Below are positions 1-19,153 of a stretch of 24,483 bases of DNA, piece by piece. The notes beneath the pieces were generated by a model. The model did no database searches. It was given only the letters and a program-made list of their open reading frames with translations, and was not told the DNA's origin. The stretch lies in the IMG/VR virus record IMGVR_UViG_3300006802_000541, positions 1-24,483 of that record. One strand, 5' to 3'. The position numbers and the translations under genes were made by a program. This stretch comes from a virus. Numbering within the stretch: position 1 is the stretch's first letter; each line of letters opens with the position of its first letter.

Positions 1-3000
1 ATTCATCTGTTTCACTATTAATATATTCAAACAGAATAATCAAAGATTTGTTTCTAAATTCTACCAGTTCATCAATATAAATTTGTTCGTTTAAGGCTCT
101 AACTATCCAACGTGTTTCTTCACTTGGATATTCGTCAAATGAATTAGTGTCAAAGAAATTGTCCCCGAATCCTGTTTTGCCTGCGGCATAATCCCACAAG
201 TAAGTTTTAAATTTAATCGTACCGTTTTGTAATCCAATTCTAGTCCAAACACCCATGCCATCGTAGCGATACATTTCCCATTTACCTTCACCGTTTTCTT
301 CAACAGTGACGATAGTATTTCTTGTAACGTTTAATGTTGCTAAGTCTGCATACATAGGTACAGTTCTAGTAGACTTAGTATTATTATTGTACTGAATTTC
401 GTTTGATGTTGTTGGCAACCACCAGTTAATGTATTCCCAATAATCTGGGGTGTTATAAAATTCTCCTGTTTGGAATAAGAACGATGCTTCTCGTCTAGTT
501 TCTGCAATAGGATACTGTGCAAGAATAGTGTTTGCGTATTCTAAGTAATTCTTTAGTGCAAAGAATCTATTAAAGAAGAAACTTTGTCTTGGTCTTGCTA
601 ATACGCCTGACTGCACTGCCTTTGGTAAGTATGGGTTAGGAACAACTCCGCCTACCTCATCAACACCTGACATAGAATCTAACATTCTATCGTATAGACC
701 TTCTGGTCTATTAGTTGCAGTTTCTGGTCCGAACTTGGGTAATCCCGGTAAGAAATCATCAGGGTAATCTGTTCTAATTAAATTAAATTCTTGGTGAGGT
801 TCTGCATCACTCAATCCTGTAGCGAATCCTATATGAAATACACTGTCATTAACATTTGTATAAGGTTGTGTATTGTATAAACCAAATGTATTTGGTAGTA
901 GTGGGGCAACAAAAGGTATACCAGAATTTTTAGGCATTGTGATATATCTTTGAAGAATGCCGTCGCTTAATGTTTTTCCTAACTGGTTATTTACTTGTCC
1001 TGTATTACGAACCCAATAGTACCATACGGGCTCAACTACACCTGATGCGTTAAGTTTTGACTGAACACAGAATTTTTGTGAATCTTTAGGTTGTCCTGTG
1101 CCTGTGTATGCTCCGGGTGGTTGTTTACTTTCTACCCAAGTATACACGGCAACGTCTGACCCTGGGAAAACTTGTCCCCATATCTTGCTGTTATATACTA
1201 TATCATTTTGATGATAGTTTAACCATCTTACTTTGCTAGTATCAAACCATAATTGTCCAACTTGATTCTCTCCCCATAACATACCAGAACTAGATTTTTT
1301 CGTACCGTCTGAATTGTATGTTGCAGGATCAATCATAGAAACATAATCTAAATTTTGTCTTACAGCACCACACATTTTGTTTTGTAGAGGATCTATGTAA
1401 TCTAAGTTAACTAATGTGTTATTTGTTTCCGCACTATAAATTTGCACATTTTGTATTTTGTCAATGTCTACAACCGGTGCTGACTCTCTAAATATACTCC
1501 AGTCTTTTAGACCGGTAGAATTAATGTAAACATTTATCTGCCCACCGATATCTGCGTATGATAAATCTGGTGTGCCTATAACTACATGGTTATCATTGAA
1601 ATCAAGTGCTGTGCCATAATTAGGTTGGTATCCGTAATTTTCATCAAGGGAGTTGCAGTGCTGTGCGTAAACAAATTGTCCAGGGTCTGCAACACTACCG
1701 TTGTAGTTTGCAAGATAATCAAACATATAAACTGCGCCGGCATTTGGATAATCATCTACGAATTGTGTTGCATTGTTATCAAATACAGTGTCATTGTGAA
1801 TATTTTCATCGTCAAAAAAATCAAACGTAGTACCTAAATACCTTGTTCCTGCAGGAGCAGAAATTACTACAGAATCACTTTCGTTAAATTTAATTGTATT
1901 ACCAAACAATGTCCTAGTCGCACCGTGCGGTGGTAAGATTGTTTGTGTTTCTGTATATAATTGAATACCTAACTCAGCAAATACACTGTCATCAGTTTGT
2001 TGTAGAGTTAATCTTTGGTTGACAGCACTTATATCGGCTGATATAATTGAGATTATGAGTTTGTTATCACTTGCGGAAGCCGTCACATTAGTAATAGCAT
2101 TATTGTTAATCTGGCTTGCAACTTGTTGTGCAGTGCTTCCAGCGGCTACAGGTATGCGGTAACCATTAATTAATAATACGCGGTTGCTTGTTAAAGAAAC
2201 TTCTGAAGTTCCTACGACTGAACCGTATTTTGCTCCGCCGTCAGTATAACGATGGACAGCACCATCTGTTATGTTTTGACCAGTACCGACAATTTCACCT
2301 GGTGCACCAAACAATATCTCATTTGAAGTATAGGTCATATCATTATCATAACCAAACTGAACACCAACTCTTGTTTTATTTCCCGCATTAACTGTTTGGG
2401 CCCACTGAAACTTATTACTTTCTAAGGTGAGTATGTCCCCTGCTCTTAATATAGAATAATATCTAATATTAGTTCCAACAACAGCATAAGTGTTATCATT
2501 TACTATTGTACTGTTTACTTGTGCCGTAATTGCTTCCGACTGCACGTATGCAGTAAACGTTACACTAGGCGCATCTGTGAGTGTCACAGTGGTCGTTGTA
2601 GAACGAGTTGTCTTTAAAGATATTGTATTACCAGCAATATCTTCAATATAATAAACTGTTGAAGATGATACTCCAGAGTCACCAAAATCAGATCCGTCAA
2701 ATACAACTGGATCATTGACATTCATACCAGTAGTTGATGCGAGTGTAATATAATTTGATGCAACTACTGTTGCTGAACTACTTGTTACTGTGGGCGCAAA
2801 TGTTAATGGGAATTGCTGATATTGATCTACACCATTAGTATATTGCGACTCAATATTTTGTACTAATCGCTGGTAAATATATCCGGAACCATAATTAGTT
2901 AGTGAATTAGGGCCTGTTTTATATGGTGAGCCAACGGCTAGAGTTGCGCCTGTATAGTCAGTAGATACTGAGAAACCAAAATTGTCGCCGGCAGTTGCAC

Positions 3001-6000
3001 CTTGAAGTGTGCCGTCGATAATGATAGGTGTAGTATCATAACTTGCTAAATTAGCAGTACCTGTACCTGATCCTGAGCCAGTAGCAATAAATGTAATCCC
3101 CACCTTGCCTTCTACTGCACCTAATGCTTCCCAATCAGTGTCGCCTACGCTAGTAATTTCATAAGTTTCGCCAGGAGTAAAGAAGCCTGCTTCAAACGGA
3201 ATTCTTTGTTTGCGATATACATAAACTTTATTGTCTACTGGATAACCTACAAAGATCCAATTTTTATCTTTTGAAATGTAAGCATCTTGTCCTACGCCAC
3301 TTGGCACAGAAATAGCAGGTTGATATTCTATTATATCATCTGTTAACACTGTATTGTTTAGTGTGTAAATATGTAATCTGGGTGTCCCTGTAGGTTCTGT
3401 CACAACATAAATGTTGTCTGCGTGTGCAATGCGTGTACCAAAAGAAGGACCACCGGTTAATAAACTTCCGGTGTCCTCATCATAACGCTGAGAATTTGCA
3501 TTGTATCCATAACGATAAACTTTTCCAACATCAGCATCACCGATGAGGTAACCCATTCTTGGACCGTATGCTACTGAACTACCAAATGACTCTCCATCAA
3601 TTCTGTCTAATTCTTCTAATTGTGCAAAGTTGATAGATTTTCGATAAACTGCCCATCCGCCATTAACACTTTCGTCAACCCAAATAGTATTTTTAACGAA
3701 CTCTGCTTCAAGTAAATCTGTGTCATTAATATCAGATGGTTTGTTAACTCTTTGTTCTATAAATGTTAAGCCAATGCCTTGCAGTCCAGTTCGACTTTCA
3801 GAATTATCTAATGTTAAATTAATGTTGATGGTGTATATATTTACTACGTCAGTTACAAGATAATAACCGTTAACTTCGGGGCCCAAACCTATAAAGCATA
3901 CAGGGTCTAATTTTTCAAGTCCGTGTGCTTTATTGAATGTAATTTGAGTTGATTGGGATCCTAAACCTTGTACTCTATCTACAATGCCTACTGTTTTCCA
4001 AGTATAAACTCTCCACTTGTTTCTAAAATTTGCTAACCAAGCATAATCTCTTACATAAAAATTATCAATCGGAACTCTTAAACCATTTGAATTTCTAGCG
4101 GTACGCAAGTCTGAAAAATAATATGCCGCCATACGCACATCTTCCCAATTGACATATCCTGCACTTGGGTATAATTGTTCTGTATCATCATAATTTGTTG
4201 TCAGTAATATATTAGGATCACTAACAGGTCTAGCATAATTATATAAATTGTAAATAGGTACTTCTTGCATTGCTCCTGCAGTTGGAGTACCGTTTGTCAA
4301 ACTTACGATTCCAGGATTACCTGTTAAATCAGATTGGTTAATTCTAAAATCAACAAAGTTGTTGTTTAAAGTACCACCGAACTGTCCCGACAAGATAGCC
4401 CAGTTTTCATAAACATCATAATCAATACCGCCCTGTGGTAAATTTGCGCCTTTGAATGCAGAAACAGCGTTTGGAGTACCTTTGTTCTTAATTAAGTTTT
4501 TGTAAACGTTAACTTGTGTAATGTCAGTCAAATCTACAAGAGCAAGATAATCTCTTGGTCTGTAACCAATCAATGAAAACGATAACTGATCTGCGTCTTG
4601 TTCTAAGTTTGCTGTATTAGTGTTGTAATACAATGTTTGTTCATAAGAACGTGTTGATGAGTTTGGCAACAAGCCTTTTTGTATCTCGTCATAATCTGTA
4701 ACAAGCCATTCAGTTTCTTGGAACTTAGATGCAGCCTGAACTGTTTTTAATGCAGTCCAGTATTTGTTTTTGTAGGTAACGATCATGCCTTTAGCATATT
4801 TTTTACCAACTGCCCAAGGTTCAATATTGTCCTGATTTAAAATAAATCCAGAAGCAAACATTGTACCGTTCCACTCTGCTGTTTTAACTCCTCGCATATA
4901 GATACGGTTTTGACGTAAACCAGTAGTTAAGTTGTATATAACATCGTTAAACACGGTTACGTTATCAAATACGATACCATGTTCAAAATTACTTAAATTA
5001 ACCTGTAAATATGACATTGCATCACCGCTGTTCAATGTTTTTACATTGAATTTAGTGTCTAAACGTGTGATTGCAAGTTCACTCAACTTAATAGGATATA
5101 AATTTTGATTTAATATAAAATTATTTTGCGTAACTGTAAGAGGCTGAACTATTAAACTTTCTTTATCAATTGTTAAGTTCTGTGCGGCTGGGTTTAAAGT
5201 AATAATTGATCCATTTTCCCAACCTGTTTGTGCCCAGTATAAAAATTCTTTAGTAATAAAGTCCCAGTTAATTTCTACACCGGAGTTAATTTCATCAAAT
5301 AGCATACCTTTACGTTGAAGATAAGCAGAGTATCCCCCTAAAAATGTTGCTACTTCCTGAGGAGTGTAAAATATAGTACCATACGGTACTAATGTTTCCT
5401 GAATAGCCGTTGTTGTGTATTCGTTTGGTACTTTTACAGTAATTTCATCTACGGTAATTTGTCTGTTGTCGCCGTTGTTAACCGGTTTATCAATAATAAA
5501 GTATGCTTGACTTTGAGAATTACCGTATACTCTCCAACCATCGGTTGTAATTTGTACTACGACAGCAGAGTATTTGAGTGTGTCTTCTGGTTGGTTATCA
5601 TGTAGTAACACAGAATAACTTTCATCAGGAATTAACAATGACGCATTATTAGAATTAGGTGTTCCTTTTTCAACAAAGAATTTTAATAGTGTTTTATCAC
5701 TATAACCAGCAAGACGATAGATTAATCGAACATCTAAGTTATCAAGTAACGAAGTAATAGAGGTAGTAGCATCAACTCCTCTGACTTTTTCGTAATCAAC
5801 AATCCAGTTTAAGTAACTAGTCTTAGGCGTGCCGGAACCATATACCTCAACGTCACTAATAATTAAGTGTTGTCTATTATCTACTAGATACTGATTAAAT
5901 TCTGTATTATACTTGTAATTGTCTAGGTCTACTGCTAAATTAAATAACTGTGCAGGTCTAGTTAATGCAAATAATTTTACAAGATCAAATGGCCATGTAG

Positions 6001-9000
6001 AACTTCTTCTATAAGATAACTCTGCTGATGCAATATCACCTACTTTCCAATCTCGTCTAAATGTATTAGAGTTATACTGTCCTATAATAGCATCTAGCGG
6101 CGAACGTAAATTACCCTGTTCGTCTACTGGTATAATTTTGCTTAATCCAGGACGTGCAACGTTTTCGTTAGTAATTGGGTCACCGTTATTCCAAATATAA
6201 CCTGCTTCTAAATCTGCCCACAAGATATCGTTGTTACTTGTGTATGGTGCAGGACCATAACGATCTGTCCACCAACTTGGCATATTAGCAAAACCTAACA
6301 TTTCCCATGGCGCAGTATTTGGTTGGAATGAATCATAGAAGAATTTGTACAACCCTCTCCAGTAACCTTGATATACTGGTGTGTTTGTTAACTTGTTACC
6401 AGATGCTGTATAGTTGTAACTAAATTGATTTCCAGTAGAATAACCTTGTTGAGTTTTATAATTAATTCTATTTGAGCCTGCCCAGTTTAAGAACATAGGC
6501 GAGTACATCTTTAAGAAATCTTCATTAGAATAGGTGCCTTCTCTAAAGAAGCCAGGCATAACTTCATATTCTTTGATAGGAACTTCAGTTGACAACTTAA
6601 TGTTGTTATAAACTCTTTGTTCAAATTCAAGTAACAGTTGATCTCTAAAATCTGTTAAGCCATATTCGGTGCTATACTCTCCATAAAGAGTCGTGTATGA
6701 CCCGTCATGACCTTGAATTACGTAAGTTGGTGCTGAGTAATTAGAATCTAAAATTACTTGTGGGATAAACTTAGGATACATGCCCAACTTAGTTGGTGTA
6801 TTAGGTACGTATGATCCATATGTTTGATTATATTCTTTTACAGTAATTACATCATTTGGTTGTAATGCTACAGTGACATTTAATGAAGGTGCTGTTGTAG
6901 AAATAGTGTAATCTCTATCCTTAATTAACTGCGTAGTAACTTGTGTCCCATTAACAACGGTTGTTTTATATACCAAAACACCACTGTAGTTTGCAGTTGT
7001 AAAATCGTAAATTTTTGTTAATGGATAAACTGATTCTTGTAGAGCATTAGCAAACGTATAATTGTTTGATTGATATGGTGCTTGTGAGGGCATCATATCG
7101 CTCCAAAAGAACGGATCTAAATCTGACTTAGAAGAGGTTACTGCATCTAATGTTTGATCTAAAATATAAGAAGCAGAAAATCTTTGTTGCCAATCGATAC
7201 CTGATGCAGTTTTAACTAACAGTTGTTTATATTGTACATATGCTTCACTGTTAAATTGTAACGCATCAAAAATATTATGCTCAGACTTACGCAAGAAGGT
7301 ACCGGGCAATACTAATGATGCAGAGTTTTGTATGATTTTTGTACCGTATGGTATAAGATTGCCTAAATCTCTGTAATTGTTTGAACCAAATATTGCTCCT
7401 TCTATACCGGGAGCGTTAACAAATATATTTTGATACTGTGATCTAATTTCGCCAATATTAATTTCTGTTAAATCTTCATTAAATGGATTATTATTTAAGT
7501 TAATAGGAACACCGTAGTATGCATTGGCGCTAACTTGATTACTTAATAATAAGATTTGAATAGGTGTATCTTCAGTTGGTGCTGTGTTTAAAGTTACAAC
7601 TGTAGAGTTGCTTGTTCTAGTAACTGTATAATCTGATGGTAGCACAAACACATTATTTAAATAAACTTGTATTGCAGGCCATTTAGCAGTATTTTCAGGA
7701 TCATCTGGTACAACAGCAATATCACAAGTAAATTGGGCTGTGGTCCCTTTTGTATATTCTAGTTCAAATATTTGATATTGAACTGAGGGGGCAACGGCTG
7801 TTTGCCAACCCAATTTCCTTGTAAAATCTATATTACTTGTGTAATCATATATGTAACCAGTATTAACTTTTTGTTCAACAGGTTCTGTCCCTGTAACATA
7901 AGAAAAACTTTGACTGTTTAATGCGACATCAAAACTAATATCACCTACGTTATCAATATTAGAATAACTTAGAGGAAAACCTAATATAGAATCGTTTGCG
8001 CCAGTGCCAACACCGTATGCAAATAATTTATTACCTACAAATGATGTGCCTTGATAGTAATCTGCGTCTCCGAATGAAATACCGTTGCTGTCAAATACAT
8101 CAAACAATGGTGCTTGATTAACTGTTAGTTTTTGTTGTGCTTCTGACCAATATTGACCATCAAACCAGAATGTTGAACCTTGATAATTGTAGCCACGTAA
8201 AGATACTGTTTGATCGTTTTCCTCAACTGGACTATCTTCTGCTTCTGTCAATGTTATTACTGCTGGACCCGTAGAAGTTAGTTTTGAAAAGCCAACAACC
8301 CAAATTTTATTTCTAACATTAATATTAGTGTCTGCCGCAAAAACAACCCTGGCGCCTGAAAACAGTGCGTATTGGTCAACAGTAGTGTCAGTACCTACGA
8401 TAGACGCATTTGTTGTACTAGCAAAAGTAGTTGCATCACTCCATGAAACTTCTAAAATAGTATTTGTACCAGCAATGTCTATACTATCAATTTGTGTATT
8501 TCTTGGTAAAATATTTGTAGAGTCTGTAATATACATACCAACTTGAAATACAGTATGTACATTCGCTGTTGGGATTGTAATATTTGTTACAGTCCCGGCT
8601 GTTACAGCATTGATAGTAGCGGTATAATCCGTGTAGGTTTCAACATCTGGATAATAGTTTTGTTGGTTTGCTACTTTTGTAAATGCATTAGTTGTTCTAG
8701 TGTCGATAAAGTCAATTGGGTTTTTAGAAGCCGCACCAGAATTAAAAAGTTTTAAATTTGGATAAAACTCAATGATAGGACGCTTTGCTTTATTTGTTCC
8801 AGTAGCATACGTTGTTATAATAGTTGGGTCTTCGTTATACTCTGCTGTCGCATTAATAACATCAATGTGGAACCATCTGTTTGATCTAGACCAAGCATTG
8901 TTATTGATAGAGTTTCTAGCGATTGTAATATAATCTGGATCAATAGGTATAAACAATTCTGTATCAAAATTACCGATTGAGTAAGGAAGTATATCGTATG

Positions 9001-10750
9001 GAATATAGTTAGCGCCAGTAAAATCTTCTGGGCACAACAATGTATCAGTTGGAATAAGTTGTATGCTAGTTCCAACTCCCTCTACATAATATTCCCCGTC
9101 TAAGTAACTAGCAGGAACTACATCTCCATCAAATTGTACTTTTAAGCCATTAGTAAAAGTTACACCATTAGTTGATGTGAATGTTTTTTGTCCTAAAATA
9201 TCTTCATTAACATTTAACGTGTTTGTTAAATTGCTTTCAACTAATCTAATAACACCTACTTTATTTGGATTTGTTCCATCCTGATAATACAACGTGTCTA
9301 ACGGTGCAGATAGATATGGAATTCGTAATATCAGCCCTGATGTGCTTCTATAAAAACTTAAACCAACATACTCTGTGCCATAAACAGCAGTAATTTTTTC
9401 TTCTGTTGGGATAACACCAGCTGGTATTAATCTAATTGTAGGGTTTGTAGGATCCCCCACATATGTTATAGTATAAAAGTTTTCTGCTACAACTGAATAA
9501 AAACCTTCTTCAAACAAACCTTCATTTACATTTGCTTCCATCTCACCTGTGTCAGCAGTTAGGGCAAGAGTAGCACCGCCTAATGTTTCACTAATTGTGA
9601 ATGTAGTTGAAGATATAATATCTTTAACATAATAGATTGTGTCTACATCTAAACCACCTAACAATGGAAGACCGTTTGGTTGTGTAAATGTAACTGTTTG
9701 ATTTTCTATTAACGCTGATGTGTCACCAGATGCGAGTACTAACTGTGATGTAGTAGTTTGATCTATTGACAAAGTAACTGGTGCTACAAGTTCAGGAGCC
9801 ACTAAGTTTACATCATAGTTTGCTCCATTTTCATCAAAGAATGACTGAACAAAACCAACTTCTTCAGGATCTTCTGTATTATAAAACATTACAGTTAACC
9901 CTTCTAGCGATGTTACACCATCGATGTCTCCAATCTCTGATAATGTTTTTCCGTTAATATCTACAAATAAGTCAGTAGAAACAACATCTACTGTGTTGTT
10001 GCCGGGAAAAATATATTGATCTTGGGCTGAACGGCTAGGTACTGTAAATGTTACGTACCCTTGATTAGCACCGTTATTAGAAACACCTAATATGTCTCTT
10101 GTATATTCATTACCATTATATCCTGTTACGCCAGGTACCCCTTGAATCCAAAACTGAGTTTCTTGGTTGACTGCAAATCTATAAGTGCCGCCACGCAACA
10201 TCGTAATTGTGGGATTGAGAGTACCTGAAGCCGCGCCAGAAGTTCTGATGTTGTATGCTTGTGGCAAATCTGATACAACATAGTCTGTTTCAGCAAATAC
10301 AGTTGCACTTGCTATAGTAACAACAGGCGGGCCTTCTGGAATCCAATAGTATTGATTAAAGTTAATTGCCTTATCTAAATTTGTAAACGAATCCCAAGAA
10401 TAAAATTCACTTTTAAATAGTTTAGAATTATCAACTGTCACCCCGCCCTTTAATTTAAGAGCATCCAACATACCTGGATAAGTAATAAAGTCTTGTGCTA
10501 CTGATTGATTTTCTTTTAAGAAAGCAATACCCGGCGCTAATTGATAATCTGTTCTAGTTTTTGTAGGCTCTGTTACGTAATAGTCATTTGCATTAACACC
10601 ATAACCAAATTTACTACCTACATAACCTTGCAGTGTTTCGTTCTTTGGTGGGTTAACTAGTTGGTCAAGGGTCGCTCCTAAAAACTGTGCATTTGAAGGA
10701 GTTTTAAATATCTCTGGTAGAAACTCAAGTGTTCTAATTCTATGACTCAT
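1..10750 (-). CDS. Giant virion structural protein downstream of gp6, probably baseplate-associated (3' end outside window)
   Basis: The frame opens at ATG 10750-10748 and, translated by hand, stays open to base 2, giving at least 3583 codons. AAAGG lies 7 bases before the ATG, and the gene starts 10 bases after the gp6 stop. The N-terminus (MSHRIRTLEFLPEIF..., then ATLDQLV near residue 30 and NQYYWIPEGPP near 128-138) resembles the very large structural proteins that follow gp6 in marine T4-like phages; this is recalled similarity, not a search. Position matches T4 gp7/gp8, so a peripheral wedge or host-contact role is inferred. Along the chain are many beta-rich segments, a small domain present twice (about residues 351-398 and 2675-2725), and seven FG-GAP-like blades (about 2386-3076). 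No signal peptide, membrane segment or enzyme motif was recognised. No frameshift was detected: codon phase checked at several points stays consistent. Confidence 0.85.
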   Translation of the reverse strand, partial: MSHRIRTLEFLPEIFKTPSNAQFLGATLDQLVNPPKNETLQGYVGSKFGYGVNANDYYVTEPTKTRTDYQLAPGIAFLKENQSVAQDFITYPGMLDALKLKGGVTVDNSKLFKSEFYSWDSFTNLDKAINFNQYYWIPEGPPVVTIASATVFAETDYVVSDLPQAYNIRTSGAASGTLNPTITMLRGGTYRFAVNQETQFWIQGVPGVTGYNGNEYTRDILGVSNNGANQGYVTFTVPSRSAQDQYIFPGNNTVDVVSTDLFVDINGKTLSEIGDIDGVTSLEGLTVMFYNTEDPEEVGFVQSFFDENGANYDVNLVAPELVAPVTLSIDQTTTSQLVLASGDTSALIENQTVTFTQPNGLPLLGGLDVDTIYYVKDIISSTTFTISETLGGATLALTADTGEMEANVNEGLFEEGFYSVVAENFYTITYVGDPTNPTIRLIPAGVIPTEEKITAVYGTEYVGLSFYRSTSGLILRIPYLSAPLDTLYYQDGTNPNKVGVIRLVESNLTNTLNVNEDILGQKTFTSTNGVTFTNGLKVQFDGDVVPASYLDGEYYVEGVGTSIQLIPTDTLLCPEDFTGANYIPYDILPYSIGNFDTELFIPIDPDYITIARNSINNNAWSRSNRWFHIDVINATAEYNEDPTIITTYATGTNKAKRPIIEFYPNLKLFNSGAASKNPIDFIDTRTTNAFTKVANQQNYYPDVETYTDYTATINAVTAGTVTNITIPTANVHTVFQVGMYITDSTNILPRNTQIDSIDIAGTNTILEVSWSDATTFASTTNASIVGTDTTVDQYALFSGARVVFAADTNINVRNKIWVVGFSKLTSTGPAVITLTEAEDSPVEENDQTVSLRGYNYQGSTFWFDGQYWSEAQQKLTVNQAPLFDVFDSNGISFGDADYYQGTSFVGNKLFAYGVGTGANDSILGFPLSYSNIDNVGDISFDVALNSQSFSYVTGTEPVEQKVNTGYIYDYTSNIDFTRKLGWQTAVAPSVQYQIFELEYTKGTTAQFTCDIAVVPDDPENTAKWPAIQVYLNNVFVLPSDYTVTRTSNSTVVTLNTAPTEDTPIQILLLSNQVSANAYYGVPINLNNNPFNEDLTEINIGEIRSQYQNIFVNAPGIEGAIFGSNNYRDLGNLIPYGTKIIQNSASLVLPGTFLRKSEHNIFDALQFNSEAYVQYKQLLVKTASGIDWQQRFSASYILDQTLDAVTSSKSDLDPFFWSDMMPSQAPYQSNNYTFANALQESVYPLTKIYDFTTANYSGVLVYKTTVVNGTQVTTQLIKDRDYTISTTAPSLNVTVALQPNDVITVKEYNQTYGSYVPNTPTKLGMYPKFIPQVILDSNYSAPTYVIQGHDGSYTTLYGEYSTEYGLTDFRDQLLLEFEQRVYNNIKLSTEVPIKEYEVMPGFFREGTYSNEDFLKMYSPMFLNWAGSNRINYKTQQGYSTGNQFSYNYTASGNKLTNTPVYQGYWRGLYKFFYDSFQPNTAPWEMLGFANMPSWWTDRYGPAPYTSNNDILWADLEAGYIWNNGDPITNENVARPGLSKIIPVDEQGNLRSPLDAIIGQYNSNTFRRDWKVGDIASAELSYRRSSTWPFDLVKLFALTRPAQLFNLAVDLDNYKYNTEFNQYLVDNRQHLIISDVEVYGSGTPKTSYLNWIVDYEKVRGVDATTSITSLLDNLDVRLIYRLAGYSDKTLLKFFVEKGTPNSNNASLLIPDESYSVLLHDNQPEDTLKYSAVVVQITTDGWRVYGNSQSQAYFIIDKPVNNGDNRQITVDEITVKVPNEYTTTAIQETLVPYGTIFYTPQEVATFLGGYSAYLQRKGMLFDEINSGVEINWDFITKEFLYWAQTGWENGSIITLNPAAQNLTIDKESLIVQPLTVTQNNFILNQNLYPIKLSELAITRLDTKFNVKTLNSGDAMSYLQVNLSNFEHGIVFDNVTVFNDVIYNLTTGLRQNRIYMRGVKTAEWNGTMFASGFILNQDNIEPWAVGKKYAKGMIVTYKNKYWTALKTVQAASKFQETEWLVTDYDEIQKGLLPNSSTRSYEQTLYYNTNTANLEQDADQLSFSLIGYRPRDYLALVDLTDITQVNVYKNLIKNKGTPNAVSAFKGANLPQGGIDYDVYENWAILSGQFGGTLNNNFVDFRINQSDLTGNPGIVSLTNGTPTAGAMQEVPIYNLYNYARPVSDPNILLTTNYDDTEQLYPSAGYVNWEDVRMAAYYFSDLRTARNSNGLRVPIDNFYVRDYAWLANFRNKWRVYTWKTVGIVDRVQGLGSQSTQITFNKAHGLEKLDPVCFIGLGPEVNGYYLVTDVVNIYTININLTLDNSESRTGLQGIGLTFIEQRVNKPSDINDTDLLEAEFVKNTIWVDESVNGGWAVYRKSINFAQLEELDRIDGESFGSSVAYGPRMGYLIGDADVGKVYRYGYNANSQRYDEDTGSLLTGGPSFGTRIAHADNIYVVTEPTGTPRLHIYTLNNTVLTDDIIEYQPAISVPSGVGQDAYISKDKNWIFVGYPVDNKVYVYRKQRIPFEAGFFTPGETYEITSVGDTDWEALGAVEGKVGITFIATGSGSGTGTANLASYDTTPIIIDGTLQGATAGDNFGFSVSTDYTGATLAVGSPYKTGPNSLTNYGSGYIYQRLVQNIESQYTNGVDQYQQFPLTFAPTVTSSSATVVASNYITLASTTGMNVNDPVVFDGSDFGDSGVSSSTVYYIEDIAGNTISLKTTRSTTTTVTLTDAPSVTFTAYVQSEAITAQVNSTIVNDNTYAVVGTNIRYYSILRAGDILTLESNKFQWAQTVNAGNKTRVGVQFGYDNDMTYTSNEILFGAPGEIVGTGQNITDGAVHRYTDGGAKYGSVVGTSEVSLTSNRVLLINGYRIPVAAGSTAQQVASQINNNAITNVTASASDNKLIISIISADISAVNQRLTLQQTDDSVFAELGIQLYTETQTILPPHGATRTLFGNTIKFNESDSVVISAPAGTRYLGTTFDFFDDENIHNDTVFDNNATQFVDDYPNAGAVYMFDYLANYNGSVADPGQFVYAQHCNSLDENYGYQPNYGTALDFNDNHVVIGTPDLSYADIGGQINVYINSTGLKDWSIFRESAPVVDIDKIQNVQIYSAETNNTLVNLDYIDPLQNKMCGAVRQNLDYVSMIDPATYNSDGTKKSSSGMLWGENQVGQLWFDTSKVRWLNYHQNDIVYNSKIWGQVFPGSDVAVYTWVESKQPPGAYTGTGQPKDSQKFCVQSKLNASGVVEPVWYYWVRNTGQVNNQLGKTLSDGILQRYITMPKNSGIPFVAPLLPNTFGLYNTQPYTNVNDSVFHIGFATGLSDAEPHQEFNLIRTDYPDDFLPGLPKFGPETATNRPEGLYDRMLDSMSGVDEVGGVVPNPYLPKAVQSGVLARPRQSFFFNRFFALKNYLEYANTILAQYPIAETRREASFLFQTGEFYNTPDYWEYINWWLPTTSNEIQYNNNTKSTRTVPMYADLATLNVTRNTIVTVEENGEGKWEMYRYDGMGVWTRIGLQNGTIKFKTYLWDYAAGKTGFGDNFFDTNSFDEYPSEETRWIVRALNEQIYIDELVEFRNKSLIILFEYINSETDE
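1525..3595 (-). repeat. Seven FG-GAP-like beta-propeller blades inside the giant protein
   Basis: Seven degenerate repeats of the pattern FG-x-S/x-V ... (L/V)xVGxP ... G-x-(V/I)-Y-(V/R)-Y can be read at about residues 2386-2416 (GESFGSSVAYG), 2430-2460 (GPSFGTRIAHA), 2470-2505 (KNWIFVGYPVDNKVYVY), 2588-2630 (GDNFGFSV, LAVGSPY, SGYIY), 2792-2842 (FGYDNDM, ILFGAPGE, DGAVHRY), 2944-3012 (LFGNTIKF, VVISAPAG, AGAVYMF) and 3038-3076 (YGTALDF, VVIGTPD, GQINVYI). FG-GAP repeats build seven-bladed propellers in integrin alpha chains and related adhesins, so one closed propeller is inferred. Blades are separated by inserted segments. Fold prediction has not been done. Confidence 0.6.
2575..2725 (-). 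repeat. Small beta domain, second copy (VYYIEDI type)
   Basis: About residues 2675-2725 of the giant protein contain VVFDGSDFGDSG, then TVYYIEDIAGNTISLKTT and a Thr-rich strand. The layout matches the copy near residues 351-398 (TIYYVKDIISSTTFTIS). The copy sits between propeller blades 4 and 5. Function is unknown; such modules recur in marine phage structural proteins as far as I recall. Confidence 0.45.
9555..9700 (-). repeat. Small beta domain, first copy (IYYVKDI type)
   Basis: About residues 351-398 of the giant protein read VTFTQPNGLPLLGG, then TIYYVKDIISSTTFTIS and GGATLALT. The order (FT..., a Gly-rich turn, T(I/V)YY(V/I)xDI, a Thr/Ser-rich strand) is the same as in the copy about 2300 residues downstream. 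It is annotated as a divergent protein-level repeat; DNA identity between the two copies is not obvious by eye. Confidence 0.45.
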
Positions 10751-10760
10751 CTACATACCT

Positions 10761-13700
10761 TTAAGACTTTAATGTGTCTGGCGTAAGTGCCGCTACGATA
10801 ACAATGTCATTAGTAGTTGCCGCATTAGCAAATATTTCATACGGTTTGCATTTGATTTCATACAAGTCTCCAAATTGTGATTCTGGATCGTTTGGAACTA
10901 ATACCACCGAACTTAGATATTCTCCTAACTGTTCATGTAAGTATGCACTTAACTCAGAGAAAAAGAACGTGTCTCCAAAATTCCAATAGTTAATATCAAA
11001 ATATGCATCCATAGCCGTTAACACAGCACTTCTAATTTCACTGTTACTGGCGTTTGTGTTCGTTGCTTTGACTACTTTGATAGTTGCTCTAAGAGCCCTG
11101 TCTGCTTTTTCACCAAACAACGGTTTAAACGTAACACTATTTAATATCACTGAATCTGACAACATTTTATAGTTTTGAATCAATGGATATTCAGCACTTA
11201 ATTGATTAAGTGTAGGTTCTGTTGGTTTTTTAACAGTGTTAGTTGTATCTTTAATCCAGTTTTGGTAATCTGTGTAATAAGCATTTGTAACCAAATACAA
11301 ATCAATAATGTTTGTTGTTGCTGGATCAATACGTGTTGTGTTGTTTGCATTATGTCTATATTGGAAAGACAAGCCTTGTCTACCTGGTTTTACTGAATAA
11401 TCTGTTTGTTCGATCAACACATAATAAGGTGTTACTATTGTAGGATCTTGTACAGTTTTATAAAAAAGATTATCTGTGTAAGCATAAAATAATGTTCCTA
11501 CCGGATATTCATATTTTACAACTTCAATTTGATTTTTAGTAGCATACGTATAAACAACATCTGTACTAGGTACAATTAGTTCTCTTGTTAAATTGACAGG
11601 GTCGGTTATAGTTCTAAAGAATACATACACACCTATATTAGCACCGTTATTAACATAACCGGTAATGTCGTTAAAGAAGTCAGGATCTAAAATTAATTGA
11701 CGATTGTTTACATCGGTCGCCGCAACTTCAACTTGAAAGTCATTTACATAACCGTCGCTTTCAACTGTTTGTCCTAAAATGTTAACTTTGGTATCTGTGC
11801 CTAATGCAGTACTAGATCCAAACTGTGAATTAATTCCTAACACATTAATAAAATCTTGTATAATTTTTCCAGTAAACGGATCGTATACTAATTCGTTTGG
11901 ACTAAAAGTAAAACGAATGTCGTCTGCACTACCAAAATAATAAGTCAATGATTTATATGTTACTGTATATCTATTGTCTCCTAAACTAGTAAATTTAACA
12001 AAATAGTTTGGATCAGTATATGTACTGATTGACCAACGTTCTTGGTTAACTAATAAAGAGTTATTAAAAACTAATGTAAAATCCTGTTGTAATTCTATCT
12101 TTAAAATACATTCTTGTATAATCTGCGGTGACAATGAGTTATCAAAAACTGGAATGATCTGTGATAATATTACTCCGTCTGGTACATAACCATTAACGGT
12201 TACTGGACCCTGTCCGTTTGCAAATGTTCCATTGCCGTTATTGTTACCATCACCGACAATATTAAGAACAGTAGACCAAATATAAGTAGATTCTCCGGGG
12301 CCGGGTACGCCAACAAGTAATCTATTATTACTATCAAAATAATAACCAGTAGGTGCAGTGAATTTTAATATTGCGCCTGCTGTTACATATTTTGCATTAG
12401 TAGTTGTGAATGTACCTAACGGAGCTGGATTTTCTACTTCGCCAGTAAGTGAATATAAGTAACCGGACTCATTAGCGGCATCTACAGAACTTACTTTCCA
12501 ATATAGTGCAGGATCTCCTGTACCTGGATATGCATATCTAGTGTAATTTTGAATATAATATTGTGTTGCTCTGTTTAATGCTAATACAGATGCTAAATCG
12601 TCAGTAAAAAATTGAATAATATCACTTGTGTTTTGTACTTGCAGTGTTAAATATCCATCTGTATCACTTTGATACAATGCACCGTCACTACCAAAAGAGT
12701 TTGTACTAGAATATTTTCCAGTTGGATCTAACAAATCTAAATTTTTAGAAATACCAATAGAACTTCTGTTTACTGCTTTAGATTTAATAATTGAATTATA
12801 AAGTGTATAAGGGAAGTTAGTATAATCTTCTCCATTTACCATTCTATTTTGTGTGTAGTATCTTGTTGGTGCACGTTGCTTGATAGAATCTAACGACTCT
12901 CTAGCCTGTGCATTAGAGACTGTAAGCGGCAAGGTTAAAGACATTGTTAAAGTTTCTCGTCTACCTCTTCTACTAATATATGTAATTGCCACTGAAATAC
13001 CGTTCATTTCAGAAGGATCAATTTGATATGTTAGTGCATTACTTGATCTTACATATGCTCTAAAATTACCAACAGGTATCTCTGAGAATACTCCATCACC
13101 AAACACATAAGTTACTTGATCGTTTGTGCGGGAGTTTACAGAGAATATCTTTTTATTTGATGATTCTGTTTGTAAGTAGGCATCTGAATAAACATTATCG
13201 ACTTGTTTCCATAATGTTCTCGTATCATCGGAATTAAGTTGGTATAACCATGTATCAGTCTCATTTATTCCATTGACATCAATATCTTGGGTTTCATTTG
13301 ATATTGCTTGCTGAAAAGTAAAATCATTTGTTTGCAATGTTCCCTGTTTAAAATAAAACATAAAACCTGTATTAGGACTTCCAAAACCTAACCCGTCATT
13401 TCTTAGTAAAATATTCATTGTGCCGCTAGGTGTAGGGGGAATTTCATAAACATAATCTTCATTTAATGATGTGGCACTTACTAATTCAAAATTCATTGAT
13501 TGTGCATCAACTACAGAAGTGAACGGTATAATTGGTAAACTACCTTCTGGAATACGCATTGTGTATTCTGAAGTTTGTACGCCCATAATATCTGCTGAGT
13601 TTGCAGGTCTGCCAATTTTTTGTGAATCTATGAAGGTAGCATTTAGTACAGAATTAAATTGATCTTGCCACATATTATTTGCAGGATCATTCCAAACAAT

Positions 13701-14123
13701 AGTTTTGTTGCTTAGGCTTGCCCCGTTCATGTCGGTGACATTTTCTGTTGTTCTGAGTGCTGTGACTTTCATATAGCCAGATGCACATGTATTTCTTTTT
13801 GGAGTATAACTTACTAAGTCTGCAAGTTTGATAACTGAATCTCTACGTTCAGCAGTATCAATAAAGTTTTCTCTGGTGTTTAAGTCATTTCTAAACGCAA
13901 GACCTTGGCCCATAAAAGCCATAACATCAAGCAGAGCAATAAACTCTGATGATTCAATATAATCGTTATACGTTTCTGGATAATATAAACGTATGTAATC
14001 AATAAAACTTTTGCGTAGGGTTTCGTAGTCGTAACTTCTGAAATCCGCTTCTCTAAACGTCTGATAGATTGCTTTCCAGTCGTTGACTCCGAATAATCCT
14101 GATTGCCTTGAACTTGTAGCCAT
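10761..14123 (-). CDS. gp6: Baseplate wedge protein gp6 (Baseplate_J family)
   Basis: A protein of 1120 residues, longer than T4 gp6 (about 660). gp6 forms the ring that joins baseplate wedges around the hub and moves during the hexagon-to-star transition. The helical N-terminus (WKAIYQTFREADF, then YYPETYNDYIESSEFIALLDVMAFMG, here residues 46-71) has the form typical of gp6 and other J-type wedge proteins. The Baseplate_J signature follows: FGDGVFSEIPVG at residues 341-352 and RYYTQNRMVNGEDY at 421-434. The C-terminal half is beta-rich and ends with a compact alpha/beta part (FDINYWNFGDTFFFSELSAY). The start is ATG 14123-14121 with AAGAG 7 bases upstream. A GATAAATA late-promoter motif lies 21 bases before the ATG. 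It sits between gp25 and the giant gene, as expected for wedge genes in marine T4-like phages. Confidence 0.9.
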   Translation of the reverse strand: MATSSRQSGLFGVNDWKAIYQTFREADFRSYDYETLRKSFIDYIRLYYPETYNDYIESSEFIALLDVMAFMGQGLAFRNDLNTRENFIDTAERRDSVIKLADLVSYTPKRNTCASGYMKVTALRTTENVTDMNGASLSNKTIVWNDPANNMWQDQFNSVLNATFIDSQKIGRPANSADIMGVQTSEYTMRIPEGSLPIIPFTSVVDAQSMNFELVSATSLNEDYVYEIPPTPSGTMNILLRNDGLGFGSPNTGFMFYFKQGTLQTNDFTFQQAISNETQDIDVNGINETDTWLYQLNSDDTRTLWKQVDNVYSDAYLQTESSNKKIFSVNSRTNDQVTYVFGDGVFSEIPVGNFRAYVRSSNALTYQIDPSEMNGISVAITYISRRGRRETLTMSLTLPLTVSNAQARESLDSIKQRAPTRYYTQNRMVNGEDYTNFPYTLYNSIIKSKAVNRSSIGISKNLDLLDPTGKYSSTNSFGSDGALYQSDTDGYLTLQVQNTSDIIQFFTDDLASVLALNRATQYYIQNYTRYAYPGTGDPALYWKVSSVDAANESGYLYSLTGEVENPAPLGTFTTTNAKYVTAGAILKFTAPTGYYFDSNNRLLVGVPGPGESTYIWSTVLNIVGDGNNNGNGTFANGQGPVTVNGYVPDGVILSQIIPVFDNSLSPQIIQECILKIELQQDFTLVFNNSLLVNQERWSISTYTDPNYFVKFTSLGDNRYTVTYKSLTYYFGSADDIRFTFSPNELVYDPFTGKIIQDFINVLGINSQFGSSTALGTDTKVNILGQTVESDGYVNDFQVEVAATDVNNRQLILDPDFFNDITGYVNNGANIGVYVFFRTITDPVNLTRELIVPSTDVVYTYATKNQIEVVKYEYPVGTLFYAYTDNLFYKTVQDPTIVTPYYVLIEQTDYSVKPGRQGLSFQYRHNANNTTRIDPATTNIIDLYLVTNAYYTDYQNWIKDTTNTVKKPTEPTLNQLSAEYPLIQNYKMLSDSVILNSVTFKPLFGEKADRALRATIKVVKATNTNASNSEIRSAVLTAMDAYFDINYWNFGDTFFFSELSAYLHEQLGEYLSSVVLVPNDPESQFGDLYEIKCKPYEIFANAATTNDIVIVAALTPDTLKS

Positions 14124-14176: not shown

Positions 14177-14635
14177 TTAAACTTCAGCCGCAGACAAAGA
14201 TTCTTGGTCAAAGAATACAGCGAGATCAAGTGGGTTGTTGAAGGGATTGACAGACATTTGCATTTCTACTAAAATACCATTATCTCTGGTAACCGCAGTA
14301 ACAGTGTTGACATATAACCGAGGATCTAAAGATGCTACTCTACGAACTTCATTTTGTACTGCGTTAACTACATCTATAGTATTAGGATCAAAAACAAAAT
14401 CCCACAATATTGTGCCGTAGTTAGGTTTGCCTACTTTTTCACCCTTACGAATGTTTAATGCATTAACAAAGTCTTGTATGACTAATTGTTCATCCGTCAA
14501 GCGAAATTTCTTACCCCAAACAATACCGCCTTGGGGTATAACACCGTCACCAACGGTATTATAACGAGTAGACGTAACCGAATAAGTCCTAGTTTTGTTT
14601 GCGTTTTTTGTTGAAAATCCTATGTATGTTGGCAT
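14177..14635 (-). CDS. gp25: Baseplate wedge / sheath initiator gp25 (GPW/gp25 family)
   Basis: 152 residues, close to T4 gp25 (132). gp25 has a lysozyme-like fold without a clear lytic role; it sits in the wedge core with gp6 and gp53 and starts sheath polymerisation. The family signature is clear: IRKGEKVGKPNYGTILWDFVF (about residues 62-82), with the conserved G-(E/R)-x-x-xPxYG run, then VNAVQNEVRR (91-100) and a C-terminal strand ILVEMQMSV. The start ATG is 14635-14633. There is no convincing ribosome site upstream; the place where one should be is occupied by a GATAAATA motif filling the gap after gp5. It lies between gp5 and gp6, as in related phages. Confidence 0.92.
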   Translation of the reverse strand: MPTYIGFSTKNANKTRTYSVTSTRYNTVGDGVIPQGGIVWGKKFRLTDEQLVIQDFVNALNIRKGEKVGKPNYGTILWDFVFDPNTIDVVNAVQNEVRRVASLDPRLYVNTVTAVTRDNGILVEMQMSVNPFNNPLDLAVFFDQESLSAAEV

Positions 14636-14647: not shown

Positions 14648-17600
14648 TTATTTTTTCTTGTATCCTGAGCCTAGATCATCATTAATAACGTTATGGTGTA
14701 ACATGTACGCTTCGTTAGTTTCACCTGCCCAGAATGCGGTGTCTCCTGCGTTGATTACTGCAACAAATTTTTCACCTACGTCTTCAATAGAAACAATCTC
14801 GTCCCAAAAAGTTTCATCATTTTTCATACAAGCAACTTCTTTACGTATAAGATTAGGGGCATCAACGAACTCTAAATCTTTAGTAAAGATAGGTGCGGTA
14901 GTAGAACACACTAATGACACCCCTGATTTAGTAAGTAATCTTACACACGGTTGCAATTCTATATAATTGAAAACCACTTTACCCATATAAGTCTCTAAAC
15001 TTGCATCACCTTTACCTAAAGAAATATTATGATCTGTGCGTAGTTGCCATGCCTGTTCTATTAATCTACTGTTAATGACAGTTGACTCTACTGCAGGTAT
15101 ATAACTTTCTAATACTACGCAACCGGCTCCACCGGGGGATGGATTAGTGTTGTCGTCAGATGGACCAGTAATATTTTCTACAGTGTTTTCTTCTACATCC
15201 GCTCCGCCTTCTTGTACGTTTTCATATGTTTTTGGTTCATATGGGTTTCTGTCTGACACTGGGCCAACTACCCATACAAATTGGGTTCCGTTGTATACCC
15301 AATACCCGGGTGCTGTTGCATTGTCAGCATTGGTGTATGGGTTGTCTCCCAAACCGTCACCGTAGTTCCAACCTGTTTCGTCAGATAAACTAGAACCCGG
15401 AGTTGCGGCATTTCCGACTCCGCCGGTGTAATTCCATGACCAATTTCCGCCACCAAGATAACCAGTTTCTTGGTTTAGATTAATTACTACACCTTTTTGA
15501 GAAAAATCGTTTGGTGTAACAATGTTTTGTGTTTCGGATCCACTACCTACTGTTGAGTTAGCATAACCACTAAAATTAAACGTTTCAGGGTTATATGCGT
15601 TATAACCAGGAGCATTAAACCATTCATTTGTCCAGCCTTCGCCCGGAGAAGTTCCTTCAGCATATACTCCTGTAGCATTTAGAATTGCATTTTGTACGGC
15701 TGCGGCATCTGCGGCAGTTGTTTCACTACTTCCATATGTTTGATTTGCATCGTTCTTAGCCGTATTTTGTAAAGTATTAAGCACTGTTGCTATCTTAGCG
15801 ATAGCCGCAGCCGTATCTGTTGTAGCGGCTCCTGCATTTGGCACTGATGGTATGGTACCAGTGGCTGTATCGTAGGCTGTCACTGCCGTTTGTAATGCTG
15901 TCACGGCTGAGTCGTAAGCAGCCTTTGCAGTTGCAATTCTTGCATCTCCTTCTGGGTAACTTGCAAGTGCTACTGAGTATGCTGATTGTGCTGTCGCTAA
16001 CGTTTCGTCTAAGGCTATAATTTCTTTGCGTTTTGATAGCAATATGTCATTAAATATTGACAATCCCATTGCTTTGTTTACGTCTGCTCTTGCTATTTGA
16101 CCTAATAGATTAGGTCTAGGGACTTGTGTCGGGCCTATTGTGTTATTAATTAATGTAGTTAGTTTACTTCTATTAAATGTGTTAATACCGATTGTTGGTG
16201 TTTTAGCATTATCTCCGGATGAGCCAGTCAATGACTTGAGTGCGGAGACAACACCTACTGCAACATCTCCGAGACCTGCGGCGCCAGTTCCTAATGCTGT
16301 TACTCTACTCTGAATAAAGTTATCTGCAAGTCCGTCTACATTACCTACGCCTGACAATAATCCCGTAACTGCATTACTAGAATTCCCTACGTCAACTCCA
16401 CTAAAGGCTTTTGTAGCAAGTTTACTAGACACTTGACTGATGAGACCGGAGGAGCCGGCCATTCCAGGAACCAGTGGATTTTTATTAACACTTCTAAGTA
16501 TGTCTGAACTGTCTACTGTCATACCTGCTATTGCACTACCGCCGGGTAAGTTTGAAATACCTGAGGCTGCGGCCGCGGCTAAGCCTGGCGCTAAACCTCT
16601 TTGAACTTGGTTTGCGGCATCAACCATTACCACACTGTTACGTGCTAGTGCTGATACGGAGCCACCCGAGGTCGCTGACCTAAGATTGCCGGCTAGAGCA
16701 GATAAGTTTTGTGGAACATTAGCAGTCATTGGTACAAAAGTTTTTGTGATTGTTTTAAATGCTGATGCTACTGGACCTAACTTGGTATCTAAAGAATTGC
16801 TAAAATTTGCCGATCCGGTTGCGGTCGAGAGTACAGAATCAGTAATAGATGCTAGTGATGCGGCAACCCCTCCTGAAGGACCCGTAAATTGTGCCTTGAT
16901 AGCACTTGCTGTTCCTTGACTAACGGCTTTTTTAATTGCATTTAAATTATTTGTTGAATTATTTCCGGCTGGGGCATATCCATTGGCTACTCGTTTAACA
17001 TTATTAATACCTGCATTTAAATCAGGTGATGATGCCGCAGCCGATACAATACCGGTCAATGCACCATACCCTTCGTTACCTGTGATCGTTCTATTTTTTG
17101 TTAATCCGGTCTGGGCTTTTTGTAAGTTAGTTACTATTGATTTACTCTGTGCAGTCGTGCTTGAAATCAAGTTATCATATGAATTTACTCCGCCTTTACC
17201 TGTAAATATATTGTTTGGCATCACTGTTCTAACAGCGGCATCGGTAAATGCACCAGTGTATGGATCTTTGGCTTTGCCTGCTTTTATTAGAGTGTTGACC
17301 ATAATGTCTGCGCCAGGTTTTAAAATTCCTCCAGCAGACAACTGAGTTGGTGTTTGTGCAAAGGAACCGATAGCCGCTGTACGTACACCTGTGACATTAT
17401 CAACATATTGCGTTGCGCCTGCTAAATTAGTTGCAACTGTTGCCGCGGCGCCAGGGCCTGCCGCCGCGAGTGTTGCCATACCACCTAGTAATGATGTAGT
17501 TGCACCTTTATCTACTGCTTTTGATACTGCGCCAACTTCTGGTACAGATGACACAGTAGCAGTTGATAATCCCGGAACCGAAGCATTAGCGGCGGCGTCA

Positions 17601-19153
17601 TCAATAAGGTCACTTACATTACTTGGGGCCGCAGCCGGTAACTGTGCATCAGCAGAGGGATCAACGTTTACATCAACACCTTGTCCTGCCATAAGCCATG
17701 GGTAATGGGCCGGAGCACGTGATGTTATACTGTCTAGTTTTCCAGGTGCGCCTGCCCATCCAACAGTAGAATCAAATAACGTATCTGGATGTTTTATAAT
17801 AGCGATCGGCTCAACTGCAACCGGAGTAACTCCGGCTTCTCCATCATTTAAATGCACCTTAGATCCATTGATATATGCTTCTCCACTTGCTTTACCAGAC
17901 CATTTACCTGCGGCTTCCATGGCAATATTTTGATCTGACTTAAATAATAAATTTTGCAGTCCATGTAATTCGTACACATCTCCTACACTTTGCTTAAACT
18001 TTTTAACTGAATTAAAGATCATATTTTCTTGTGCATTTATATTAACATCTTTGCCGGCATGTATATTAACCATATTATCAGCATGTAAATTTAAATCACC
18101 TTGCGTTCTTAAGTTAATAGAGTTTGTTGAAAATACGTCAACTGTGCCTTCTTTACCTAACTCAATATAAGATTGTCCATTAGAATGTAGAAGCATCAAT
18201 ACTTGTCCATCATCACTCATTAATATTTGATGACCTAATGCTGTACGCAGTCTAATTAATTGGTCTCTACCAATTATATCACCATCATCCATAACGAGTG
18301 AATGACCACCTCTACGTGCAACAACACGCATTGATGTGTTAAAATCATCCTCTGTGTCACCGGATTCTTTTTTGTTTATTTTTGATGCTAATGAGTTGGC
18401 GCCACCGTCTGTGAATCCACCTTCATAAATAGGTCTACCGGGTGTGCTTACACCCCAACCAACTCTACTAGTTGCTTCACGTGATGCACTAGAACCGATA
18501 GGTCCTCTGATTCTATCTCTAAGAATACCTTGCTGTTGCATAATAGATGCGGCATAACTGTGAATAGGTTTTGCCGCAGTTAGATAATCAGGCGAGTCCG
18601 CAATATCTTTGTTATTTGTATTGATGTTTGTTACTGGTAATGTCGTTGCACCACCATAACTTTGTGCTTCGCCTTCGTTTGCAATAATATTATCAGATGA
18701 TCCAATTGCAGGAATCATTTGTAATTCATCTGGATCGGGTACTGCACCTATGTAAAACCCGTAGTTTAAATCTCCGTTAACAAAAATACAAATAACTTTT
18801 GTACCTATATCAGGTGGTGCGTTCCATTGACCATAGGAACTAGGATTTGTAATATATTGCCCATATTCAGAACTAGTGACATTTCCGTTGTCATCTGTTT
18901 CTTCAGTGGGAGATGCTGTGGGTCTGACTGAGCCAAAGAACGTGTGTAGTCTTCTTACTGGAATCCAAGTGTCTCTATCTTGTGAGGCTTTATCAAATGA
19001 CTCACTAGGAAACACAAACAGTTTACCTGAGTTTGTGGGGTCAATGTTGTCCATAACAGTAGCAATAATAGGAACATTCTTAATGGTGGCGACCCCTGCG
19101 CCTGCTTCATATTTTCTTACTTTGCCTCTGGGTTTAAAAACATTTCTACTCAT
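14648..19153 (-). CDS. gp5: Baseplate spike/hub protein gp5 with long C-terminal extension
   Basis: 1501 residues; T4 gp5 has 575. gp5 trimers form the cell-puncturing needle below the hub. Residues about 25-150 are the OB-fold domain (IIATVMDNIDPTNSGKLFVF, then GTKVICIFVNGDLNYGFYIG). RRGGHSLVMDDG (281-292) is the motif that leads into the spike in gp5/VgrG proteins. Residues about 300-440 are a triple-stranded beta-helix with an 8-residue period (NLHADNMVNIHAGKDVNI near 355-372). No lysozyme domain is visible between OB fold and helix, unlike T4. After the helix come APAHYPW (480-486), an Ala/Ser/Gly-rich stretch (about 505-1030), a probable coiled coil (about 1035-1150), a Gly/Asn/Tyr/Trp-rich linker (1165-1340) and a Hint-like domain (1345-1488). 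The start ATG has AGG 7 bases upstream, and the hub stop lies 2 bases before it. Confidence 0.88.
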   Translation of the reverse strand: MSRNVFKPRGKVRKYEAGAGVATIKNVPIIATVMDNIDPTNSGKLFVFPSESFDKASQDRDTWIPVRRLHTFFGSVRPTASPTEETDDNGNVTSSEYGQYITNPSSYGQWNAPPDIGTKVICIFVNGDLNYGFYIGAVPDPDELQMIPAIGSSDNIIANEGEAQSYGGATTLPVTNINTNNKDIADSPDYLTAAKPIHSYAASIMQQQGILRDRIRGPIGSSASREATSRVGWGVSTPGRPIYEGGFTDGGANSLASKINKKESGDTEDDFNTSMRVVARRGGHSLVMDDGDIIGRDQLIRLRTALGHQILMSDDGQVLMLLHSNGQSYIELGKEGTVDVFSTNSINLRTQGDLNLHADNMVNIHAGKDVNINAQENMIFNSVKKFKQSVGDVYELHGLQNLLFKSDQNIAMEAAGKWSGKASGEAYINGSKVHLNDGEAGVTPVAVEPIAIIKHPDTLFDSTVGWAGAPGKLDSITSRAPAHYPWLMAGQGVDVNVDPSADAQLPAAAPSNVSDLIDDAAANASVPGLSTATVSSVPEVGAVSKAVDKGATTSLLGGMATLAAAGPGAAATVATNLAGATQYVDNVTGVRTAAIGSFAQTPTQLSAGGILKPGADIMVNTLIKAGKAKDPYTGAFTDAAVRTVMPNNIFTGKGGVNSYDNLISSTTAQSKSIVTNLQKAQTGLTKNRTITGNEGYGALTGIVSAAASSPDLNAGINNVKRVANGYAPAGNNSTNNLNAIKKAVSQGTASAIKAQFTGPSGGVAASLASITDSVLSTATGSANFSNSLDTKLGPVASAFKTITKTFVPMTANVPQNLSALAGNLRSATSGGSVSALARNSVVMVDAANQVQRGLAPGLAAAAASGISNLPGGSAIAGMTVDSSDILRSVNKNPLVPGMAGSSGLISQVSSKLATKAFSGVDVGNSSNAVTGLLSGVGNVDGLADNFIQSRVTALGTGAAGLGDVAVGVVSALKSLTGSSGDNAKTPTIGINTFNRSKLTTLINNTIGPTQVPRPNLLGQIARADVNKAMGLSIFNDILLSKRKEIIALDETLATAQSAYSVALASYPEGDARIATAKAAYDSAVTALQTAVTAYDTATGTIPSVPNAGAATTDTAAAIAKIATVLNTLQNTAKNDANQTYGSSETTAADAAAVQNAILNATGVYAEGTSPGEGWTNEWFNAPGYNAYNPETFNFSGYANSTVGSGSETQNIVTPNDFSQKGVVINLNQETGYLGGGNWSWNYTGGVGNAATPGSSLSDETGWNYGDGLGDNPYTNADNATAPGYWVYNGTQFVWVVGPVSDRNPYEPKTYENVQEGGADVEENTVENITGPSDDNTNPSPGGAGCVVLESYIPAVESTVINSRLIEQAWQLRTDHNISLGKGDASLETYMGKVVFNYIELQPCVRLLTKSGVSLVCSTTAPIFTKDLEFVDAPNLIRKEVACMKNDETFWDEIVSIEDVGEKFVAVINAGDTAFWAGETNEAYMLHHNVINDDLGSGYKKK
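14690..15121 (-). other. Hint-like (hedgehog/intein-type) C-terminal domain of gp5
   Basis: Residues 1345-1488 start with Cys in GAGCVVLESYIP. They continue through QPCVRLLTKSGVSLVCSTTAP (block-B-like, 1402-1422) and end WAGETNEAYMLHHN (1475-1488). The first Cys, the (L/V)xC-S-TTAP strand and the terminal HHN follow the layout of Hint domains at the ends of some phage tail proteins. The block-B His normal in inteins is absent (STTAP), and the residue after HN is Val rather than Cys/Ser/Thr. Splicing is therefore unlikely; autocleavage or a purely structural tip role is possible. Confidence 0.55.

Follow-up and report, generated by a model that had tools for sequence, protein, structure and literature searches.

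A predicted integrin-type seven-bladed propeller in the turn of a hairpin of a giant, baseplate-associated phage protein

The FG-GAP propeller fold is already known in viruses. Searching our structure model against the BFVD database with Foldseek, we found the same fold in a virion protein of phage S-TIM5, in the "hemagglutinin" of phage Atu_ph07 and in Mimivirus-like collagen proteins, at 9 to 13% identity to the propeller described here (17% for one protein of an uncultured phage). The S-TIM5 and Atu_ph07 matches are short separate proteins of ~400 aa, and none of the viral matches was seen inserted into a giant baseplate protein. Among cellular proteins, the closest counterpart is the integrin alpha head (PDB 9ef2, 4wjk, and 9ind), and in some integrins an I domain is inserted between propeller blades, a precedent for the arrangement reported below. 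The closest described relatives of the protein that carries our propeller are the PHROG 10938 giants of Rak2-like and related jumbo phages (PA5oct gp355, Munch gp262, and Atu_ph07 gp180), which are encoded in the same place, behind homologues of gp25 and gp6, but have no propeller: PA5oct has a near-bare hairpin at the corresponding site, Munch has ~80 aa there, and Atu_ph07 and Phosso have unrelated content. For the cultured members of this family, annotation goes no further than "virion structural protein" or "hypothetical." In the open literature that we searched (subscription papers and preprints lay outside the search), no paper dealt with FG-GAP propellers of phage baseplates, and none described a propeller within a baseplate giant, its insertion in a hairpin or a series of bare and decorated forms, so that these three features are apparently new.

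The sequence analyzed here (the window) is a virus record of 24,483 bases. Its minus strand encodes, in order, homologues of the T4 baseplate proteins gp53, gp5, gp25, and gp6, with a 719-aa virion protein between the first two, followed by the giant open reading frame (ORF):

21315 to 21629, minus strand: gp53-like wedge protein (phrog_7145, E = 7e-22)
14648 to 19153, minus strand: gp5-like hub protein (phrog_13211, E = 2e-31)
14177 to 14635, minus strand: gp25-like baseplate wedge protein (GPW_gp25, E = 3e-7)
10761 to 14123, minus strand: gp6-like baseplate wedge protein (phrog_10646, E = 9e-263)
2 to 10750, minus strand: ORF of the giant virion protein, 3,583 aa within the window and cut by the window end (phrog_10938, E = 3e-243)

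The giant was assigned to PHROG 10938 by a profile match over its conserved core, and in the loci examined its complete relatives are 5,740 to 6,576 aa long. The annotation of the PA5oct record states that the homologue was detected by mass spectrometry. Together with the gene order, this supports the view that the giant is a virion component encoded beside the baseplate genes, and the baseplate association proposed in the initial annotation thus stands. A T4-type Gp23 capsid protein is encoded on each of five long contigs (128 to 361 kb) from the window protein's family, as would suit jumbo phages within the wider T4-like group. In T4, the gene directly behind gp6 encodes the wedge protein gp7, so the giant occupies an equivalent position, but gp7 has only 1,032 aa, and hhalign gave a probability of ~1% or less for homology with gp7 in every part of the giant, which should therefore not be called gp7. 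As an incidental observation, the last ~170 residues of the gp5-like protein (1,501 aa) recall, by eye, a Hint/intein-like domain (GCVVLESYI ... CSTTAPIFT ... HHNV); Pfam gave no match in this protein at E ≤ 0.05.

The initial annotation had read seven FG-GAP repeats between positions 1525 and 3595 of the window. We found seven such repeats at residues ~2380 to 3090 of the giant, corresponding to positions 1481 to 3613:

3500 to 3613, minus strand: blade 1 (residues 2380 to 2417)
3317 to 3463, minus strand: blade 2 (residues 2430 to 2478)
3203 to 3316, minus strand: blade 3 (residues 2479 to 2516)
2846 to 3022, minus strand: blade 4 (residues 2577 to 2635), the sole blade above the Pfam FG-GAP_2 cut-off
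2207 to 2404, minus strand: blade 5 (residues 2783 to 2848)
1706 to 1933, minus strand: blade 6 (residues 2940 to 3015), the most conserved blade
1502 to 1693, minus strand: blade 7 (residues 3020 to 3083)

The repeats might in principle be a chance resemblance in a beta-rich protein, and two results point that way. In the window sequence taken alone, only blade 4 passed the FG-GAP_2 cut-off (29.5 bits against 23; E = 8e-7), the motif being degenerate in blades 1 to 3, and an earlier structure model, with 12 input sequences, had a poor pLDDT of 54. The rest of the evidence contradicts this reading, which we consider very improbable. A strict FG..GAP pattern occurred three times in the region, whereas 500 shuffled sequences averaged 0.09 occurrences and never exceeded 2. 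Scans of viral contigs with the propeller region yielded more than 250 relatives (two scans confirmed 263 and 289 stretches, with 80 kept from each), and FG-GAP_2 matched 46 of 55 close and 40 of 45 distant relatives; once the 45 distant relatives were included in the alignment, an FG...GAP-type consensus was seen at all seven blade positions. Furthermore, profile-profile comparison connected all seven blades, the best partner of each scoring 51 to 94% probability (94% for blades 1 and 2, 93% for 4 and 5, 88% for 1 and 3, 83% for 2 and 6, and 70 to 84% for 5 and 7), whereas matches between inserts and blades stayed below 4% and column-shuffled controls averaged 0.7% (95th percentile, 2; a single outlier at 20.5).

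An AlphaFold2 model built from 55 sequences reached a mean pLDDT of 87.4 and a pTM of 0.88, and its best Foldseek matches among solved structures were the heads of integrin alpha5 and alphaV (E values from 2e-10; TM-score to the target, ≤0.59). From the match of the model to closed seven-bladed propellers, we infer that the ring is closed. The assignment of residues 2380 to 3090 as a seven-bladed propeller of the FG-GAP/integrin-alpha type is thus well supported by prediction and comparison, and the fold and blade number originally proposed were borne out. As to profile families, the expected relationship held for FG-GAP_2 but not for VCBS or FG-GAP_3, neither of which gave a match in the Pfam scans; sequence searches of the PDB returned nothing useful. 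The predicted fold, blade number, and FG...GAP pattern are those of the integrin alpha head. The two differ in that identity is only ~10%, that the phage propeller carries inserts in blades 3 to 5, and that it is embedded in a virion protein. The integrin calcium loop DxDxDGxxD was found in none of the 55 relatives, and its absence rules out an integrin alpha subunit proper.

Comparison with shorter members of the family showed where the propeller sits. The whole domain occupies the turn of a W-x-V-Y ... W-x-x-x-R hairpin, the arms of which flank it:

3638 to 3655, minus strand: left arm of the hairpin, WAVYRK (residues 2366 to 2371)
1481 to 1501, minus strand: right arm of the hairpin, WSIFRES (residues 3084 to 3090)

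At this site, a short member reads, for example, GAWTVYRY-LSGN-WLPYRQ...KID, whereas the window reads GGWAVYRK, about 710 aa, and then KDWSIFRESAPVVD, so that the propeller stands where the short hairpin has its turn. The two ends of a propeller adjoin each other, and such a domain can therefore fill a hairpin turn without disturbing the host fold. The giants of PA5oct, Munch, Atu_ph07, Phosso, and SCTP-2 are homologous to the window protein on either side of the propeller but not within it. The right junction aligned at >99% probability in all five; in the same test, the left junction aligned well only in SCTP-2 and so rests on the hairpin motif. We regard the insertion site, derived from prediction and comparison, as well supported.

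Across loci found through the conserved core, the stretch between two conserved anchors ranged from 196 to 1,706 aa. Among 99 distinct intervals surveyed (a biased sample, with two query proteins and 80 loci kept per search), 71 held a propeller, 16 were near-bare, and 12 had other content. In Phosso and Atu_ph07 (L017, residues 1690 to 3200, and L019, residues 1660 to 3180), the site holds ~1,500 aa rich in GxGY..AP repeats, unlike the propeller. The Atu_ph07 giant is thus without a propeller, yet this phage encodes a separate 393-aa FG-GAP-like propeller (A0A2L0UZX4), the protein annotated as hemagglutinin. The segment at the site in SCTP-2 (L018, residues ~2110 to 2360) resembled LamG by eye, a candidate that we dropped when Pfam gave no support at E ≤ 0.001.

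An unrooted tree of the core domain, quickly computed by maximum likelihood, placed 78 propeller-bearing rows and 1 bare row on one side of a branch with support of 99 and the 27 other rows on the opposite side. The propeller label changed twice on this tree, compared with a mean of 25 changes when labels were shuffled. The propeller is therefore the mark of one uncultured phage group (78 of 79 surveyed rows), and searches for propeller relatives in cultured phages (tblastn) and in bacterial and archaeal genome contigs found none. Without a root, the tree cannot formally separate a single gain on one side from a single loss on the opposite side. The exceptional bare row, L184, is nested beside propeller-bearing L156 and retains the hairpin (GWAVYTYNGSTWTRTRQQSPSVD), the state that a clean loss would leave; we provisionally read it as such a loss, on the basis of a single 17-kb contig. 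Relatives without a propeller and the nested bare lineage together imply that the wedge can be built without the propeller.

The initial annotation had also noted extra modules between blades 3 and 4, 4 and 5, and 5 and 6. They are present there, and in the predicted strand order each of the three (residues 2517 to 2572, 2645 to 2780, and 2849 to 2938) lies between strands 3 and 4 of blades 3, 4, and 5, respectively, the middle one being made up of two modules:

3035 to 3202, minus strand: insert A, GETYEI module (residues 2517 to 2572), ahead of strand 4 of blade 3
2537 to 2818, minus strand: insert B1, VYYIEDI module (residues 2645 to 2738)
2411 to 2536, minus strand: insert B2, VNGT..DNNYAV module (residues 2739 to 2780)
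1937 to 2206, minus strand: insert C (residues 2849 to 2938), ahead of strand 4 of blade 5, with a marginal Flagellin_IN match

The suggested likeness of insert C to flagellin-IN motifs survived in part: the match lay just over the Pfam cut-off (23.0 against 22.7 bits) but recurred in only 2 of 55 relatives, so the link is weak. A B1-like module also occurs near residues 330 to 392 of the window's giant, and ~10 more copies were found in the C-terminal half of relatives (L003, residues ~4080 to 6160, with equivalents in L036, L044, L062, and L076), so that this half of the giant may form a long stalk of beta-rich repeats.

Within the window's own family, the rapid diversification of inserts between related phages that had been envisaged was not seen: mean pairwise identity was 0.61, 0.43, and 0.49 for the three inserts, against 0.45 to 0.67 for the blades, making the inserts about as conserved as the blades. 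In the wider clade, the distance between successive blades at the three sites ranged from ~50 aa, which corresponds to no insert, to 412, 261, and 261 aa, respectively, and hence the inserts from nothing to some 370 aa; propellers bare at all three sites occur in L140, L222, L176, and L156, for example. Pfam placed CBM_5_12 above its cut-off in three members of the wider clade, and by eye these modules lie between blade strands, partly in 2-3 loops. CBM_X2 matched one member, and an endosialidase beta-barrel family matched one distant interval. The inserts of the window's own propeller gave no convincing carbohydrate-binding match in Pfam.

In the standard propeller layout, the loops ahead of the fourth strand share one face. 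The modules of blades 3 to 5 would then be carried on a single face and, as these blades are neighbors, would form a cluster presented by the rest of the giant. By the same layout, a second conspicuous element would lie on the opposite face:

1751 to 1834, minus strand: blade-6 loop, TTFDF.DDEN..NDT.FDNNAT (residues 2973 to 3000), conserved, with low model confidence on its own

Few parts of the family are as conserved as this loop, which is also retained in the wider clade. Its conservation speaks for a protein-protein interface, and the combination of conservation and low confidence when modeled alone is as expected for a loop that acquires its fold by binding a partner; it might dock to another virion protein.

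We favor, at a probability of roughly 55%, the reading that the propeller is a display scaffold seated in the hairpin of a wedge-like giant, bearing modules on blades 3 to 5, docked through blade 6, and serving adhesion to the host surface, where the displayed face would contact probably glycans at adsorption. Here we infer the adhesion, the outward-facing side, and the blade-6 docking alike. Display is favored by the near-bare and filled states of the hairpin at one place and by insert sites that are bare in some members of the clade and large in others. For adhesion speak the CBM_5_12 modules in three members, inserts that come and go, and the apparent clean loss of a whole propeller; against it speak the conservation of the inserts within the window's own family, which bear no arms-race signature there, the failure of the window's own inserts to match any carbohydrate-binding family convincingly, and the conserved blade-6 loop with its suggestion of a protein-protein interface. 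Host-surface recognition, which the initial annotation had thought suitable for such a propeller, is plausible on these comparative grounds. More tentatively, a fixed site, a propeller, and lineage-specific loop modules might make up a receptor-recognition platform in the wedge itself, not in a tail fiber.

The main rival to adhesion gives the propeller a part in assembly or architecture: it would dock other virion proteins (a tail fiber, a neighboring wedge or whiskers), with the inserts as its interface and no direct contact with the host. The equal conservation of inserts and blades within the family is in keeping with such a role, as are the status of blade 6 and its loop as the most conserved part and the recurrence of insert modules elsewhere in the giant, where they look structural. 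The propeller is dispensable for the wedge, however, given the many relatives that have the same core and gp6 without it and the nested lineage that apparently lost it, and the insert sites are highly variable across the clade, sometimes with carbohydrate-binding modules. We consider an assembly role less likely than adhesion, but a real possibility. We consider it unlikely that the propeller is an enzyme acting, for example, on a surface polysaccharide, like other catalytic viral propellers. Pfam Lactonase, a seven-bladed propeller family, did match 11 of 55 relatives, and the endosialidase match in the one distant interval may be counted with it, but the Lactonase matches were weak (best E = 8e-4), the best fold matches, integrin heads, are nonenzymes, and we identified, short of a systematic search, no known catalytic motif.

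With these results, part of one of the largest phage virion proteins gains a concrete fold, an insertion site, and an evolutionary history. If the adhesion reading is true, a widespread uncultured group of jumbo phages would have a modular recognition device within its baseplate that uses the same fold as animal cell adhesion. The role can be tested, since nature offers experiments of its own in the form of bare, filled, decorated, and apparently lost states.

Two minor observations concern other parts of these loci. The giant ORF of one relative (L015, 2879 to 11623) ends at 2,914 aa, within the propeller region, which may reflect a frameshift, a genuine truncation or a sequencing error. In the core of the window's giant, a weak CBM_5_12 match (E = 0.006, below the cut-off) lies at residues 1979 to 2006 (positions 4733 to 4816, minus strand), and a likewise weak match occurs in PA5oct and SCTP-2.
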